From NCBI GenBank assembly GCA_003142595.1, contig PLMU01000007.1, positions 5,166 to 69,165 of the forward strand: DNA of 64,000 nt, written 5' to 3'. The notes under the pieces are model-generated. The model saw nothing but the letters and a program-made list of their open reading frames with translations, was not told the origin of the DNA and made no database searches. This DNA comes from Phycisphaerales bacterium (GTDB lineage: Bacteria; Planctomycetota; Phycisphaerae; Sedimentisphaerales; UBA12454). Shown one piece after another: positions 28,432-35,565 of this stretch; the stretch's first letter is position 1; every line of letters starts with the position of its first letter. Both the position numbers and the translations under genes were made by a program.

Positions 28432-29328
28432 CTACCAGATTTCTATTTCAAGCTCGAGCTCGACGTCAAATTTTTCCTTAACCTTTTCCTTGATAGTATC
28501 AATCAGCGAAATCACGTCTCCGCTTTTGCAGCCTTTTTCGGCGATGATAAAATTGGCGTGCTTTTCGCTGACAATCGCACCGCCGATTTTAGTTCCCTTA
28601 AGACCTGTGCGGTCAATCATCGCGCCGGCACTCATACCGCGAGGATTTTTGAAAACGCAGCCGGCGTTTCTTGTGTTCAGCGGCTGAGTGTTCTTCTTGT
28701 ATATCCATATCTCTTTGACCGTATTCAAAAGCTGCTGCGGGTCGGCCTGGTATAATTTGATTTGCGCGCCGATAATAAATTTCGCAGTGATATTGGATTG
28801 CCTGTAATCGAAAGACAGTTCGGGTTTTCTCTTTTCAAAAAGATTGCCCTCGTTGTCCATCAGGGTAACCGCTTCGACGGCGGAGCCAAAGTCGCCGAAG
28901 ATTCCGCCTGCGTTCATCTTAACCGCTCCGCCTATAGAACCGGGAATGCCGGTGAGGGCCTCAATTCCGCCCTGCCCTTTGCGGACACTATCAAGCACGA
29001 GTTTACCCAAATCGGCGCCGGCGCCAGCATTAAGAATAAGTCCGTTATGCTCAATTTTGCAGAATTGGTCGCTATCGAGTTTTACTACAGCACCTTTTAC
29101 ACCATGGTCGCGAATAAGAAGGTTCGAGCCAAGGCCGAGAATTCGCAGCGGCATATTGTTTTCGGTGCAGCGTTTGACAACATCGGCAAGCTGCTCGACG
29201 GTTTGAGGCCGAATGAAAAACTCCGCCCCGCCGCCCAGACCAAACCATGTGTTCTCGCCCAGCGGGAAGTCTTTCTCAACTATTTTTTCTAAGCCACTGA
29301 ATATATTCGTCCGCGACTTTCCAGACAT
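28432..29328 (-). CDS. murB: UDP-N-acetylenolpyruvoylglucosamine reductase
   Basis: MurB reduces the enolpyruvyl group to give UDP-MurNAc using FAD and NADPH. The 298-aa protein has TWFGLGGGAEFF (~24-35), LGLGSNLLIRDHG, the FAD segment EALTGIPGSIGGAVKMNAGG, FDYRQSNI, the proton donor region NPRGMSAGAMID and SEKHANFI. Its ATG lies inside murC, overlapping it by 53 nt. No closer ATG, GTG or TTG exists before LGENTWF, so the overlap looks genuine. Confidence 0.95.
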   Translation of the reverse strand: MSGKSRTNIFSGLEKIVEKDFPLGENTWFGLGGGAEFFIRPQTVEQLADVVKRCTENNMPLRILGLGSNLLIRDHGVKGAVVKLDSDQFCKIEHNGLILNAGAGADLGKLVLDSVRKGQGGIEALTGIPGSIGGAVKMNAGGIFGDFGSAVEAVTLMDNEGNLFEKRKPELSFDYRQSNITAKFIIGAQIKLYQADPQQLLNTVKEIWIYKKNTQPLNTRNAGCVFKNPRGMSAGAMIDRTGLKGTKIGGAIVSEKHANFIIAEKGCKSGDVISLIDTIKEKVKEKFDVELELEIEIW

Positions 29329-30745
29329 TGCCAGCTCCCATAGTCATTAAAATATTGCCAGATTTTACATTAGTTTTAAGATATTCGCAAATTCTTTCGA
29401 GCGAATCTATAAACATCGCATTGCTGCCCTTTTTTATTATCTGGTCAACGAGCATCTGCGAATTAACTTCGTTTTTGGATTTTTCGGTATCCCTGACAAA
29501 ATAAATGTCGGGGACAATAGTCATATCGGCAAGCTTGAAACTGTCGGCGAAATCCCTGAGCAAAAATCTTGTCCTGCTGTACTGGTGCGGCTGAAAGACA
29601 CAGAAAATCTTCCTGCCGTCATACATCTGCCTCATAGCCTTCAAACTGGCCTTTATCTCGGTAGGATGATGAGCATAATCATCGTAAACAGTAATGCCGT
29701 TAATCTCGGCCTTTTTCATTATACGCCTGTCCATACCCTCAAAGCCACCCAAAACCTTCAGCACCTGAGCACCATCAACGCCCATCGCTTCGGCAGCGGC
29801 CAAAACCGCAAGAGCATTTTTGACATTGTGTTCGCCGAGCAGTTTTATGGAAGTTGAGCCAATTTCCCTTTGCCTGTTGAAACAGGTAAACTCCGTCCGG
29901 TCAGGAAAATATTTTATCTGCCTTGCGGAATAATCAAAACTGTCTTTCAAACCGAAAGTCAAAATCTGTCTGCCCTGTATCGCGGGAATCAATTTGGCAA
30001 TGTTCGCATCTTCGCCGCCCGCTATCAGCACGCCATCGGGCCTAATGCCATTTGCGAAAGCGCCGAAGGCCTCGACTATTTCATCGATGCCCGAATAATA
30101 ATCCAAATGGTCGGGCTCAATATTTAAAATAATTCCGACTGCCGGATGAAAATTCAGAAAACTCCTGTCGTATTCGCAGGCCTCAGCGATAAAAATATCA
30201 CTGCTGCCAATGCCGGACGATGCGTCAAACTGCGAAATGTCGGCGCCGACAACAAAGTTTGGCTCAATGCCGAGCTTTTTCAGCACGTAAACAAGCCAGC
30301 CGGTTGTTGTGCTTTTGCCGTGCGTGCCGGAAATGGCAACGCCTTTGTAGCGGTCCATAACAAGGCCGAGCATCTGGGCATATTTGTAAACCATTATTTT
30401 GCGGCGGCGAGCCTCGAGAAGTTCAGGATTGTCGTCTCGGACAGCGGCTGAAATGACTACGCCATCGAGGTCGGCGGGCAGATTTGCGGCAGCGTGACCA
30501 ATTTTTATGGCGACACCGCCGGAAGAAAGGCGGTTAGTAAGAACGGAACTCTCCATATCGGAACCACTTACAATCGCTTTTTCCTTCATTAAAATAGCGG
30601 CAAGAGCACTTGTTCCAACGCCCCCGATACCTATAAAATGATACTTTTTGCCTTCCGATGGCGATTTCTTTTCCATATTTCTATTACCAATCGGCACATA
30701 AAACTGATGTGCACTCTTAACGGGTCTTAAATCGGTTATCTTCAA
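29276..30745 (-). CDS. murC: UDP-N-acetylmuramate-L-alanine ligase
   Basis: MurC adds L-Ala to UDP-MurNAc. The 489-aa protein shows YHFIGIGGVGTSALA (~35-49), the ATP loop ISGTHGKSTTTGW (~137-149), the IEPDHLDYY segment, YDDYAHHPTEIKA and FQPHQYSRT, and ends MTMGAGNVWKVAD. The start is uncertain: TTG 30745 has a good GGAG at 7 nt and gives a ~34-residue lead, while ATG 30676 gives a more usual N-terminus but lacks a Shine-Dalgarno. It is the first gene of the murC-murB-ddl-ftsQ run. Confidence 0.94.
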   Translation of the reverse strand: MKITDLRPVKSAHQFYVPIGNRNMEKKSPSEGKKYHFIGIGGVGTSALAAILMKEKAIVSGSDMESSVLTNRLSSGGVAIKIGHAAANLPADLDGVVISAAVRDDNPELLEARRRKIMVYKYAQMLGLVMDRYKGVAISGTHGKSTTTGWLVYVLKKLGIEPNFVVGADISQFDASSGIGSSDIFIAEACEYDRSFLNFHPAVGIILNIEPDHLDYYSGIDEIVEAFGAFANGIRPDGVLIAGGEDANIAKLIPAIQGRQILTFGLKDSFDYSARQIKYFPDRTEFTCFNRQREIGSTSIKLLGEHNVKNALAVLAAAEAMGVDGAQVLKVLGGFEGMDRRIMKKAEINGITVYDDYAHHPTEIKASLKAMRQMYDGRKIFCVFQPHQYSRTRFLLRDFADSFKLADMTIVPDIYFVRDTEKSKNEVNSQMLVDQIIKKGSNAMFIDSLERICEYLKTNVKSGNILMTMGAGNVWKVADEYIQWLRKNS

Positions 30746-30907: not shown

Positions 30908-30941
30908 TTGACATTACATACTATGTAATACATAATATGTA
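30908..30941 (+). promoter_or_regulatory. padR promoter with two palindromic operators
   Basis: TTGACA (30908-30913), 17 nt and CATAAT (30931-30936) make a strong promoter. TTACATA-C-TATGTAA (30914-30928) and TACATA-A-TATGTA (30929-30941) are back-to-back palindromes filling the spacer and -10 box. TACATA...TATGTA is the style of PadR operators, so autorepression is expected. AGGAG (30957-30961) serves the ATG at 30971. Confidence 0.85.
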
Positions 30942-30970
30942 AAACATAACTTTTACAGGAGTATATATAT

Positions 30971-31312
30971 ATGAAATTTGAACGTGAACTATTAAAAGGA
31001 GTAGCCCCAGTTGTGGTGCTTGAAATTCTGTCGCGGGGCAGGATGTACGGCTATGAATTGTCCGAGGCGATTGAAGCAAAAAGCCAGAAAATCCTGACGC
31101 TCGGACAGGGAACTCTCTACCCCCTGCTTTACAACCTTGAGGCACAGAAATTAGTCAAAGGCCAGTGGGAAACAGCCGAATCGGGCAGAGAACGCAAGTA
31201 TTATTCCATTACCAGCAAGGGCAAGGAAAAACTCGATACCGACAAAGTGCAGCTTGGAGATTTATTTAAGGCATTGAAGCTGGTCTTTGGAACATCTATC
31301 GTTCCTGCTTAA
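30971..31312 (+). CDS. PadR-family transcriptional repressor
   Basis: A 113-aa winged-helix protein: LKGVAPVVVLEILSRGRMYG followed by YELSEAIE (~10-37), QGTLYPLLYNLEAQKLVKG (recognition helix and wing), ERKYYSITSKGKEKL and a short dimer helix. PadR repressors leave DNA on binding small, often phenolic or drug-like, ligands or envelope-stress signals. The tandem operator directly upstream points to autorepression. Two genes for membrane proteins that begin with a HAAS-like domain follow in the same direction, the usual PadR partner arrangement. Confidence 0.92.
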   Translation: MKFERELLKGVAPVVVLEILSRGRMYGYELSEAIEAKSQKILTLGQGTLYPLLYNLEAQKLVKGQWETAESGRERKYYSITSKGKEKLDTDKVQLGDLFKALKLVFGTSIVPA

Positions 31313-31331
31313 ATTTTAAAAAGGATTTATT

Positions 31332-32993
31332 ATGGCAAACAAGGAGAGTAAAAATCCGTTCAATAATTTGCCGGGGTGCGCAGCGGAGTATATCAGGCTT
31401 GTTATCAAAAAGATGCGATGGCAGAAAAAAGTCCGCGGCGATGTTCAGGCAGAACTTATCGCTCATTTTGAAGACGCACTGAAAGAGTGCAAAACCAATG
31501 AGGAGAAAGAAAAGACGGCTAAGGAAATAATCAGCGAATTTGGCGATGCGAAAATGTTGGCTATCCTTGCCAGACGCGCCAAAAAACGCTGCCGGCCACT
31601 CTGGCAGAAAATGATGATTCGCTTCTGGCAAACAGTCGGTGTTACGATTGCTCTGTTTGCAATTTACATCGGCTGGTTCCTGAGCGGAAGGCCGGCGATA
31701 ACAACCGATTATATTGAAGTAGCCAATAAAATGATGAAACCGAAGGCCGCAGATGATTCACAAAATGCTGCGCCATATTATGAAAAAGCCACCAAGCTGA
31801 TTGAACCGCAGAACGAACAAAGCTTTGAATACCTTAGAAAAAGTTTTATCGAGGCCAGTGAAGCCAATATTGTTCAGATAAAACAATGGCTCGACAAAAA
31901 TCATGAGGCTTTAAATCTTATCGAACAAGGCACAGAAAAACCATACTATTGGCCGACGTTTCAGGGTGAACTCAAGGACAACAATAGTATGCTTTCTGCT
32001 CGTATGCCGAATCTTGGCGAATATAGAACGCTGGCTCATGGATTAAGATGGCGGGCATATCTATCCGCCGAGGATAAGCAATATGAAAAAGCATTTATGG
32101 ACTTGTTAACGATTTATAAATTCGGCAAACATCAAAAAAAGGGAATACTTGTTCAAAATCTTGTTGGAACTGCCATTGAAGCTCTATCAACCAGCACAGT
32201 CAGAACGATATTATCCAGGCACGATATTGGGGCAAAGCAGCTCGAATCCTTTTACAATAATTTGCAGGCAATTGTCTGTAACGAAAATTTTGTGGTGGAC
32301 CCGTCATTTGAAAAACTTTTTGAATATGATGAAATTCAAAGATGTTTTACAGAAAGTCATTTTGGGTTTGAGCATATCTATCTTAAGCGTTTACTTGCAA
32401 TCGGAGATTTCTCTGTTCACAATGACTGGCAGGCTCTGCGTCTGGCTATGCGAAATCTGCCTACAACCTTTAATGTGTTTTTCACTCACCCTGATAAGCA
32501 GCACTCCAGGCAAATGACAGATGCTTTTTTTGATTTCTGCCAGCAGGCAGCAGCCGAAACTCCGTTTGAGCTTAAAGGACGCGACCTTGAAAAAGAATCA
32601 ACAGCATTACTCAAAGATAATATCCTGCTCAGACTTCTTGCGCCTGCAATGCAAAAGGTAGCTGTCCTGTCGTGGAGGTATAAGGCAGAAGTCGAGGGCA
32701 CTGTTGCAATTATCGAGATATTAAGGTTCAAGCAGGAAAAGGGACGGCTGCCTGATGATTTGCAGGAGCTTGTTACAGCAGGATATCTGAAATCATTGCC
32801 AATGGACCCGTATAGCGATAAACCGCTGGTCTACAAAAAAACACCGGATGGCTTTACGTATTACAGTATCGGTCAGGATTTTGTCGATAACGGCGGAATA
32901 ATGGGGGTTGATAAAGAAGGCAAACCGAGTTTGTGGAAGAGTGATAACGCCGATGCAGTATTCTGGCCGGTATTACAAAATAAAGCAAAATGA
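31332..32993 (+). CDS. HAAS-domain membrane protein with pseudopilin-like C-terminus, copy A
   Basis: The 553-aa protein has a cytoplasmic N-domain of ~90 residues resembling the HAAS/DUF1700 unit found beside PadR regulators (YIRLVIKKMRWQKKVRGDVQ, then AELIAHFEDALK and EIISEFGDAKMLA). One membrane helix follows (~98-115, VGVTIALFAIYIGWFLSG), then a ~400-residue helical outer part. The C-terminal ~70 residues read LPMDPYSDKPLVYKKTPDGF followed by TYYSIGQDFVDNGG, like the end of GspG-type pseudopilins, but without a prepilin signal. AAAAGGATTTATT serves the ATG. Function unknown; it is probably repressed by PadR. Confidence 0.8.
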   Translation: MANKESKNPFNNLPGCAAEYIRLVIKKMRWQKKVRGDVQAELIAHFEDALKECKTNEEKEKTAKEIISEFGDAKMLAILARRAKKRCRPLWQKMMIRFWQTVGVTIALFAIYIGWFLSGRPAITTDYIEVANKMMKPKAADDSQNAAPYYEKATKLIEPQNEQSFEYLRKSFIEASEANIVQIKQWLDKNHEALNLIEQGTEKPYYWPTFQGELKDNNSMLSARMPNLGEYRTLAHGLRWRAYLSAEDKQYEKAFMDLLTIYKFGKHQKKGILVQNLVGTAIEALSTSTVRTILSRHDIGAKQLESFYNNLQAIVCNENFVVDPSFEKLFEYDEIQRCFTESHFGFEHIYLKRLLAIGDFSVHNDWQALRLAMRNLPTTFNVFFTHPDKQHSRQMTDAFFDFCQQAAAETPFELKGRDLEKESTALLKDNILLRLLAPAMQKVAVLSWRYKAEVEGTVAIIEILRFKQEKGRLPDDLQELVTAGYLKSLPMDPYSDKPLVYKKTPDGFTYYSIGQDFVDNGGIMGVDKEGKPSLWKSDNADAVFWPVLQNKAK

Positions 32994-34684
32994 AGAAAAA
33001 GCAAGATAACAAAATGTTTATAAATCTTCCAGACTGTGCAACAGAATATATTCGGCTTGTCATCAAGAAGATGCGATGGCAGAAAAAAGTCCGCGGCGAT
33101 GTTCAGGCAGAGCTTATCGCACATTTTGAGGACGCTTTGAAATACTGCAAAACGAATGAGGAGAGAGAAAAGACGGCTAAGGAAATAATCAGCGAATTTG
33201 GCGATGCGAAAATGTTAGCTATCCTTGCCAGACGTGCAAAAAAACGCTGTCAGTCACTCTGGCAGAAAATGTTTACCAAAGCCCTTCAAGTCTCCGGCAT
33301 AATAATCGGCTTATTTATTTTATACGTAATCTGGTTTATAAGCGGCAAGCCGAAAATAACAACTGATTATGTGGCACAACTCAATCAAATTGCCAAGCCA
33401 GCTTCTACAGATGAAACACTGAACGCGGCATATTATTATAATCAGGCGGGCGAAAAAATTGACAAACTTCCTGAAGAGATGACAAATATTTTCGCAAAGT
33501 CATACTTCGAATGCAATGAGCCTGAAAAAAAACAGGCCGAGGACTGGCTGGCGGAAAATCAGGAGCTTTTAAATCTTGTCATTGCGGGCTCTGATAAGCC
33601 CTACTGCTGGGATAAATATGAAGCAGGAGACAAAAATATGTTTGTTGTGCTTTTGCCGCATCCCAAAGAATACAAAAATATCGCACGAATATTGTGCTTT
33701 AAAGCGTGCTTTTTGGCATCGGGAGGAAATTACCATCAGGGACTCGAAAATATTTTAACAGCGTTTAAATTGGGAAAGCACATAAAGGCAGAGCCTTTCC
33801 TTATTGAACAGTTCGTCGGCATAGCAATAGAATCCACTGCCGTTCAAAATCTACGGCAGATCCTGAGCAGGTATAATATCGACAAATCCGAACTTGCCAA
33901 ACTCCAGAAAGACCTTGAGGCAATTGCCCGGGAAGATATCTTCAGGATAAATTTCAAGGCCGAAAGATTATGTATGTATGACGGGATACAACGATGGTTC
34001 ACTGATGATATTTTCGGAGGACATATTTGCGTTAAAGGAGATGGTCTAGGGATAATTGACGTGATAATTAACGGCCCAAATAACAGCCAAAATAACTACC
34101 AGGAGCAAGGATTTAGCGATACGTCAAAACGGTTTCTTCAAATCTTATTTATTCAGCCGGGAAAAAAAGAAACGCTTAAATCCTCCGATGAAATATATGG
34201 CTATTATGAAAAATTATCGGCACTGACGCCGTTTGAGCAGCAAAGTATAGAACCCAATACGAATGAGAAATTAAAGGAAATAGCAGGCAAAAATATATTT
34301 TTGGCTATGCTCGCTCCAGTGTTTAATAAATTCGTAACCATGCCTTACAGAAGTAAGACTGAAATACAAGCCGCGACGACGATAATAGCTATAATTCGCT
34401 ACAAACAGGAAAATGGGACTTATCCGGATAATCTCGAAGGGTTATTAAAAGCAGGTTTAATAAAAGAAATTCCTGGCGACCCGTTCAGCGACAAGCCTTT
34501 GATTTACAAAAAGACCGAAAAAGGCTTTACCTTATACAGTGTCGGTCCGGATTTTGTCGATAATAGCGGAATAATGGGGGTTGATAAGGATGGCAAGCCG
34601 AGATTGTGGAACGAAACCGGAGGCGATGCAGTATTCTGGCCGGTGGCAGAGCCGGGGCAGAAAGCTGTAACCAGCCGCAAATAA
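32990..34684 (+). CDS. HAAS-domain membrane protein with pseudopilin-like C-terminus, copy B
   Basis: A 564-aa paralogue of the preceding gene with the same order: HAAS-like N-domain, membrane helix (VSGIIIGLFILYVIWFISG, ~97-115), helical outer part, and the end IPGDPFSDKPLIYKKTEKGF then TLYSVGPDFVDNSG. It overlaps copy A by the ATGA tetranucleotide, so translation is coupled. The first ~90 residues are almost identical in the two proteins while the outer parts have diverged strongly; the last ~60 residues are intermediate. Two related subunits of one membrane assembly would fit, but this is inference. Confidence 0.8.
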   Translation: MKKKQDNKMFINLPDCATEYIRLVIKKMRWQKKVRGDVQAELIAHFEDALKYCKTNEEREKTAKEIISEFGDAKMLAILARRAKKRCQSLWQKMFTKALQVSGIIIGLFILYVIWFISGKPKITTDYVAQLNQIAKPASTDETLNAAYYYNQAGEKIDKLPEEMTNIFAKSYFECNEPEKKQAEDWLAENQELLNLVIAGSDKPYCWDKYEAGDKNMFVVLLPHPKEYKNIARILCFKACFLASGGNYHQGLENILTAFKLGKHIKAEPFLIEQFVGIAIESTAVQNLRQILSRYNIDKSELAKLQKDLEAIAREDIFRINFKAERLCMYDGIQRWFTDDIFGGHICVKGDGLGIIDVIINGPNNSQNNYQEQGFSDTSKRFLQILFIQPGKKETLKSSDEIYGYYEKLSALTPFEQQSIEPNTNEKLKEIAGKNIFLAMLAPVFNKFVTMPYRSKTEIQAATTIIAIIRYKQENGTYPDNLEGLLKAGLIKEIPGDPFSDKPLIYKKTEKGFTLYSVGPDFVDNSGIMGVDKDGKPRLWNETGGDAVFWPVAEPGQKAVTSRK

Positions 34685-34857: not shown

Positions 34858-35565
34858 TTATTTTGCCATAGCCTGTTTGCGTAAATTGGCTGGCATTTTT
34901 TCAATTGCGTATCGCAAAGCGGTTCGCGGCATATCAGCTTTATTGCTTACCACAAAATCAAACACCTGCGACTGGTGTTTGCGGCTCGCTTCCTTCAGCA
35001 TCCAGCCGTAACCTTTTTGGACCATATCATCTTCATCCGTGAGCAGATTATCTGCGATTTGGAAAATATCTTTCAGGAATTTACCTTTTCTGGCCGGGAT
35101 AATCAGTGAAACAGCGGCGGCGCGCCTCAGCCAGCGATTTTTTGATTTTGTCCATTTTTTCAGGCCCGCCAGATAGTCGGGATACATCTGAATGAACGAG
35201 CCTACGGCGTGATTGCATAGATTATCACACGTTGCCCAGTTATCGACATATTTATTAATCCAGCGTTCAAAGATTTTGAAATCGCCCGGCAAGAATCTTT
35301 CGTGAATATTATCCGCCCAGATGCCGGCAATTATGCCTTGTTCGCCAAAGCCGGATTTAAAAAGTTCTTCGCACAGGATAAAAATCTCTTTTTTGCTTAA
35401 GTTTTTAATCTCCGAAAAATATTTTTTGGAAATTTTCCTGATAATCGGGGCTTTTACACCGTGAACCTTTACCTTTTCTTTGAAAAACCTCTGAGCGACA
35501 TTTTTAACCCGCTCGCTGGCTGAGGCTTTAAGCTCATTTCTCATTTGTTCAATAATTTTACTCAT
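34858..35565 (-). CDS. AlkD-like DNA glycosylase (HEAT-repeat)
   Basis: The 235-aa, all-helical protein follows the DNA alkylation repair (AlkD) family: KVHGVKAPIIRKISKKYF (~34-51), VDNWATCDNLCNHAVGSF (~107-124, with the catalytic-region W and D), RRAAAVSLIIPA and VQKGYGWMLKEASRKH. AlkD removes bulky or positively charged alkylated bases without base flipping. It is transcribed alone from a TATAAT box 8 nt before the ATG, so the mRNA is probably leaderless. Confidence 0.88.
   Translation of the reverse strand: MSKIIEQMRNELKASASERVKNVAQRFFKEKVKVHGVKAPIIRKISKKYFSEIKNLSKKEIFILCEELFKSGFGEQGIIAGIWADNIHERFLPGDFKIFERWINKYVDNWATCDNLCNHAVGSFIQMYPDYLAGLKKWTKSKNRWLRRAAAVSLIIPARKGKFLKDIFQIADNLLTDEDDMVQKGYGWMLKEASRKHQSQVFDFVVSNKADMPRTALRYAIEKMPANLRKQAMAK

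Follow-up and report, generated by a model that had tools for sequence, protein, structure and literature searches.

A padR-led operon for tandem HAAS-like membrane proteins with a pseudopilin-like end in a planctomycete

Genes of the locus

The window considered here, a stretch of 64,000 nucleotides from a Phycisphaerales bacterium (phylum Planctomycetota; GenBank assembly GCA_003142595.1, contig PLMU01000007.1, positions 5,166 to 69,165 of the forward strand), encodes a padR gene followed by two tandem membrane-protein genes, A and B, whose products are referred to below as receptors. All three genes lie on the plus strand: padR (30971-31312) specifies a 113-residue winged-helix regulator of the PadR family (80.1 bits against a Pfam PF03551 gathering cut-off of 27), and receptor A (31332-32993, 553 residues) and receptor B (32990-34684, 564 residues) overlap by 4 bases. 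A tandem pair of this kind, with near-identical HAAS domains that carry few silent differences and with diverged outer parts, is newly described. A preliminary description of the locus had named padR and two coupled genes for proteins of about 555 residues, each with a HAAS-like domain, a single helix, a large outer part and a GspG-like last segment; these elements were recovered by profile, hydropathy and structural modelling, albeit with a weak HAAS signal in the two window copies. The search of the organism's own genome returned one PadR match, the padR of the window, and no second PadR.

Promoter and predicted operator

The best sigma-70-type match of the padR upstream region, agreeing with 11 of 12 consensus positions, is a core promoter at 30908-30936 on the plus strand, composed of a -35 element TTGACA (30908-30913), a 17-bp spacer and a -10 element CATAAT (30931-30936); promoter-like sites in the scanned 4.1-kb stretch numbered 15, against 9.5 in shuffles. 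Palindromic sequence was said at the outset to fill this promoter, and indeed the predicted PadR operator (30914-30942) is a 29-bp palindrome of two 11-bp ACATANTATGT boxes (30916-30926 and 30930-30940) that covers the spacer and the -10 element. It is the best palindrome in the 225-bp intergenic region and was equalled in 5 of 2000 dinucleotide shuffles, so that by itself it is suggestive and conservation carries the case. Its half-sites alternate with 3-bp gaps (ACAT-N3-ATGT-N3-ACAT-N3-ATGT). Small PadR size and ACAT/ATGT half-sites are shared with the PadR-s2 regulators LmrR and bcPadR1/2, whose operators, according to the available text of PMC3506622, differ in having an inverted ATGT/ACAT motif whose spacer measures some 8-10 bases.

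A 35-bp operator motif was grown from the window site and trained on the tested loci themselves, for which reason shuffled sequences and loci without the motif serve as the control; three loci that the start motif did not fit were left out of the count. The motif lies in the promoter upstream of 66 of the 68 usable padR genes, with scores exceeding the best of 340 shuffled sequences. Among 20 loci fetched for other PadRs, 18 lack the motif and two match it, namely L097, which is the padR of this same receptor system in genome G006, and L092, where the match is weak; the motif occurs in none of the 20 loci with homologues that lack HAAS. Given that exactly one site at three or fewer mismatches is present in the whole of the organism's own genome, control looks local. 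In G106, a genome from another class, the padR promoter region (L231) holds a related palindrome.

Linkage to padR and distribution

The preliminary description had made its proposal depend on an association of such proteins with padR in other genomes, and that association was found. A profile-guided scan over 84,980 species, each represented by a single genome, recovered at least 73 loci that encode relatives of A, a lower bound since relatives were sought only via the peptide KKRCRP[LWM]W; 70 of these loci are labelled planctomycete, two Actinomycetes and one "uncultured bacterium". In 70 of the 73, the receptor gene is preceded on its own strand by a stand-alone padR (at a distance of about 1 kb in L182), and the three loci without a visible padR (L132, L172, L176) are all cut by a contig end. 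In 59 genomes searched, the organism's own and its relatives, A was matched in 53 and PadR in 36. A draw of 119 genomes from the phylum yielded 18 with a match to A at E<=1e-20; outside the order, only the match in G106 spans the HAAS part, and padR precedes it there as well. Within the order, Pfam HAAS matches mostly adjoin a PadR, and other PadRs likewise precede HAAS-like proteins. The doubling stressed in the preliminary description is a real pair in the window and otherwise a minority variant: one receptor per padR is the norm, and 12 of the 73 loci, like the window, have more than one full copy (two or three). No paper on PadR with planctomycetes or on such a receptor was found in the open-access literature that was searched.

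Two further arrangements were observed around padR genes. The padR of G006, a genome from the same genus, has a transposase-like gene behind it (L097 45-1496; IS110-type, judged from the sequence), and the receptor gene is found on a different contig, with 99 bases between the contig start and the gene (L132 1-100); an insertion may have split the padR-receptor operon in that genome. At L110 (2941-5912), a different padR precedes an 875-residue protein that combines a VIT domain with a PEP-CTERM-like end, possibly another surface protein governed by a PadR.

Domain composition of the receptors

The N-terminal 80 or so residues of A and B appear to be HAAS-like, at residues 13-92 in each protein (31368-31607 in A and 33026-33265 in B, plus strand). 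Pfam HAAS (PF22564) scores A at 16.7 and B at 14.0 bits relative to a cut-off of 27; among 68 relatives it finds 47 at E<=1, and one full relative exceeds the cut-off (G051:C222, 27.5 bits). The published description of HAAS is of three helices with a kink at a GxP motif in the last of them. In an AlphaFold2 model computed for A from 68 sequences, with a mean predicted local distance difference test score of 91.2 over the whole chain, helices at 15-28, 32-50 and 56-70 are followed by a break at 71-72 and a long helix at 73-118; G71 is present in 68/68 relatives and P73 in 7/68. Hydropathy places one membrane stretch in each receptor, at residues 101-119 of A (31632-31688, plus strand), where the modelled helix is continuous, and at residues 94-123 of B. 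HAAS, transmembrane helix and outer domain are fused in one chain. Extra hydrophobic stretches precede HAAS in L190, L197, L200 and L064, where HAAS would sit in a cytoplasmic loop, and the G106 protein (L231 2749-4680) appears to have a pair of HAAS-like stretches, with G-S-P intact in the second.

Beyond the membrane helix, the model predicts a helical outer domain (residues 121-427; 31692-32612) and a beta-bearing end (residues 428-553; 32613-32990), both on the plus strand. A structure search with the whole model of A returned no PDB match at E<=0.001, and the outer domain appears, on the model, to be without a clear relative among solved structures. The best VIA-align hit of the whole model, a designed helical repeat at Z 8.5, was rejected as lying at chance level for helical models; Toll-like receptor 3, the best single-sequence PDB match of A (E 0.34), and the Pfam matches to Shugoshin, Fijivirus and RPAP1 were likewise dismissed as chance. 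In receptors of about 690-880 residues (L195, L196, L197, L200, L201, L203), the outer domain contains an insertion that may have arisen by duplication of a segment.

The last ~120 residues are predicted to share the fold of GspG, the major pseudopilin of type II secretion. The end-domain profile of A finds GspG in the PDB (E 8.6e-5), with the eight best rows all GspG-type, and hhalign aligns the domain to a GspG of the same order with a probability of 96.6%. In VIA-align, the six best matches to the modelled domain are GspG-type pseudopilins (Z 8.8-7.5), led by 3g20 (Z 8.8, rmsd (root-mean-square deviation) 4.2 over 96 residues); type IV pilins follow, and unrelated folds stay under Z 3. Foldseek, queried with this domain by itself, found nothing at E<=0.001. 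The domain begins near residue 428, after HAAS, membrane helix and outer domain, and has no prepilin signal, whereas in GspG that signal and the first helix stand at the start of the protein; it therefore constitutes a domain of pseudopilin fold, placed last in a membrane-anchored protein of 553 residues, and not a pseudopilin. As regards calcium binding, a trait of GspG, the sequences show a conserved acidic loop, with D519 in 68/68 and D or N at position 516 in 68/68. The counterpart in B (34289-34681, plus strand, start approximate) is assigned by alignment to A and scores 16.4 bits with NCBIfam GspG, below the cut-off.

Outer domain and pseudopilin-like end also occur together without HAAS, alone in many genomes. 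Neither a fixed regulator nor a PadR was seen beside such homologues in 20 fetched regions; those at L112-L131 are often orphan or tandem membrane proteins, with no constant partner seen. G042 and G043 contain ten matches each, HAAS-bearing forms included.

Homogenised HAAS domains and diverged outer parts

The HAAS domains of A and B have been homogenised by gene conversion. They are 92-93% identical, in contrast to about 31% for the outer parts, and the homogenised tract joins 31410-31613 of A to 33068-33271 of B (plus strand; about these limits), with identical runs of 44 and 51 bp. Fourfold sites differ between A and B at 7/25 in HAAS and at 22/30 in the outer part (Fisher p 0.0009). A and B are united in the HAAS tree at 98/98 support, and a grouping of A with L132 is rejected there (p 0.02); the outer-part tree rejects both A with B (p 5e-6) and the L145 pair. 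The outer parts have different orthologues from other genomes, in L132 for A (66%) and in L135 for B (62%). In the wider multi-copy set, comprising 27 copies from 13 loci (the 12 and the window) with nearest relatives sought among 91 proteins, the nearest HAAS was the sibling's for 14 of the 27 copies and the nearest outer part for three.

HAAS is also the most conserved receptor part between genomes, and purifying selection on a conserved domain could in principle produce similar copies without any conversion. Two comparisons of silent sites make this explanation very unlikely. Pooled over all within-locus pairs, fourfold sites differ at 146/385 in HAAS and 360/547 in the outer part, as against 50709/78081 and 94982/134985, respectively, between loci. 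Moreover, B differs from its L135 orthologue at 15/22 fourfold sites in HAAS and 20/53 in the outer part; the HAAS of B being the more diverged of the two, the gene is older than the adapter within it. What favours selection is that 7 of the 15 pairs show no significant silent-site excess (8/15 are significant singly at 0.05). These pairs also count against the signalling operon proposed below, as do the 5 of the 13 multi-copy loci in which the sibling is nearest for no HAAS copy, and the HAAS tree, which does not reject B with L135 (p 0.31).

Homogenised adapters would be a natural outcome if A and B both had to fit a single PadR, and only one PadR was found in this genome. Conversion needs similarity, however, and can follow from mere similarity, so that a homogenised HAAS is no proof of a shared partner.

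Proposed mechanism

Taken together, these findings are probably best explained by a self-regulating HAAS-PadR operon that carries signals from the membrane to DNA. PadR would bind the palindrome within its own promoter and block RNA polymerase, thereby repressing padR, A and B. Both receptors would reside in the inner membrane, with HAAS on the cytoplasmic side and the helical outer part, tipped by the pseudopilin-like domain, on the periplasmic side; once a signal reached the outer part, HAAS would alter its grip on PadR and lift repression, yielding more repressor and more receptor. Two receptors with different outer parts would in this manner feed one PadR, with gene conversion keeping the HAAS domains alike as the outer parts diverge. 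Several points weigh against this interpretation: the HAAS scores of both window copies lie under the Pfam cut-off, the GxP proline is rare among the relatives although the glycine is invariant, no operator was found in the padR upstream regions of L190 and L203 (2/68), and the operator score is much lower in G106.

A different assignment of roles would make the membrane proteins effectors instead of sensors, with PadR reading a small molecule, as LmrR does, and derepressing both genes, and with HAAS providing feedback alone. In the Listeria lltR operon, as far as the available text of that study goes, an effector function was tested for the genes that follow the repressor (Hauf et al., 2019; PMC6624303), and the HAAS-less homologues, found alone in many genomes and with no fixed regulator, suggest an outer part that is useful apart from PadR; it is this occurrence without HAAS that keeps the effector explanation alive. 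We nevertheless consider it doubtful, as padR linkage tracks HAAS (70/73 loci, as opposed to none seen in 20 regions with HAAS-less homologues) and as homogenised HAAS domains beside diverged outer parts better suit a division into adapter and receptor.

The polarity of the proposed signal could also be the opposite, with HAAS as a co-repressor or tether such that membrane-held PadR represses and the signal frees PadR from DNA. The architecture leaves polarity unfixed, and "release or reconfiguration" is allowed for in the available text of Ravi et al. (2024; PMC11237479). The argument that makes this alternative unlikely is that, with both partners behind one promoter, the co-repressor would be needed before the promoter could shut.

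The ligand- or stress-responsive envelope system suggested in the preliminary description stays conjectural. Within the signalling operon preferred here, the nature of the signal invites a more specific and quite speculative proposal. Several periplasmic receptors with freely diverging outer parts might report to a single PadR via HAAS domains kept interchangeable by gene conversion, their pseudopilin-like tip docking on or reading the type II secretion pseudopilus, or periplasmic calcium, and the operon might accordingly answer to the status of the envelope or of secretion; we regard this elaboration as improbable in its full form.

Relation to known systems

The HAAS-PadR dyad has been proposed in mSystems as an alternative to two-component systems and their histidine kinases, a proposal that, in the available text, rests on gene neighbourhoods (Ravi et al., 2024; PMC11237479). 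The HAAS partners given there are PspC, Toastrack, LiaI-LiaF, FtsX/MacB, FtsW/RodA, VanZ, pentapeptide and other multi-transmembrane parts, HAAS matches adjoin PadR in other lineages, and the same receptor-to-PadR logic is proposed for the other fusions. The PadR-HAAS reading of the preliminary description is consistent with that account, but such pairs are not limited to the small membrane proteins of Firmicutes that it mentions, given the several kinds of membrane and sensory fusion described. As far as that text extends, the window system is a planctomycete version of the dyad: it shares the stand-alone PadR gene and the N-terminal helical HAAS-like domain fused to membrane and sensory parts, and it differs in a receptor domain outside the described fusions, since a helical outer domain with a pseudopilin domain at its end is attributed to none of the partners there. 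The string "planctomycet" is absent from the main text of the article, and its available portion makes no mention of receptors in tandem whose HAAS domains are homogenised.

Likewise, the Listeria LltR/LstR operons place an autoregulated PadR ahead of a gene for a DUF1700 (HAAS-type) membrane protein, and members of this group autorepress, as is proposed for the window system (Hauf et al., 2019; PMC6624303). Unlike the window system, they have, according to the available text, a multi-spanning membrane protein plus a separate DUF4097 exoprotein, and no pseudopilin-like end.

The logic of the planctomycete operon is ordinary and its build new, namely a new type of predicted sensor for a known, little-tested dyad. 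Its outer part places a pseudopilin fold outside any pilus gene, in a phylum with poorly known signalling. The locus additionally offers a clean test case for the dyad, with a single PadR in the genome, a single and conserved operator, only one helix in the membrane and, as an unusually clear natural experiment on the adapter, a domain swap that has spared it alone.

Neighbouring genes

The genes that flank the operon were named by reading of their sequences. Upstream and divergent from padR are murB- and murC-like genes (28432-30745), and downstream of B lies a convergent DNA alkylation repair-like gene (34858-35565). In G006 (L097), murB- and murC-like genes adjoin padR as well.

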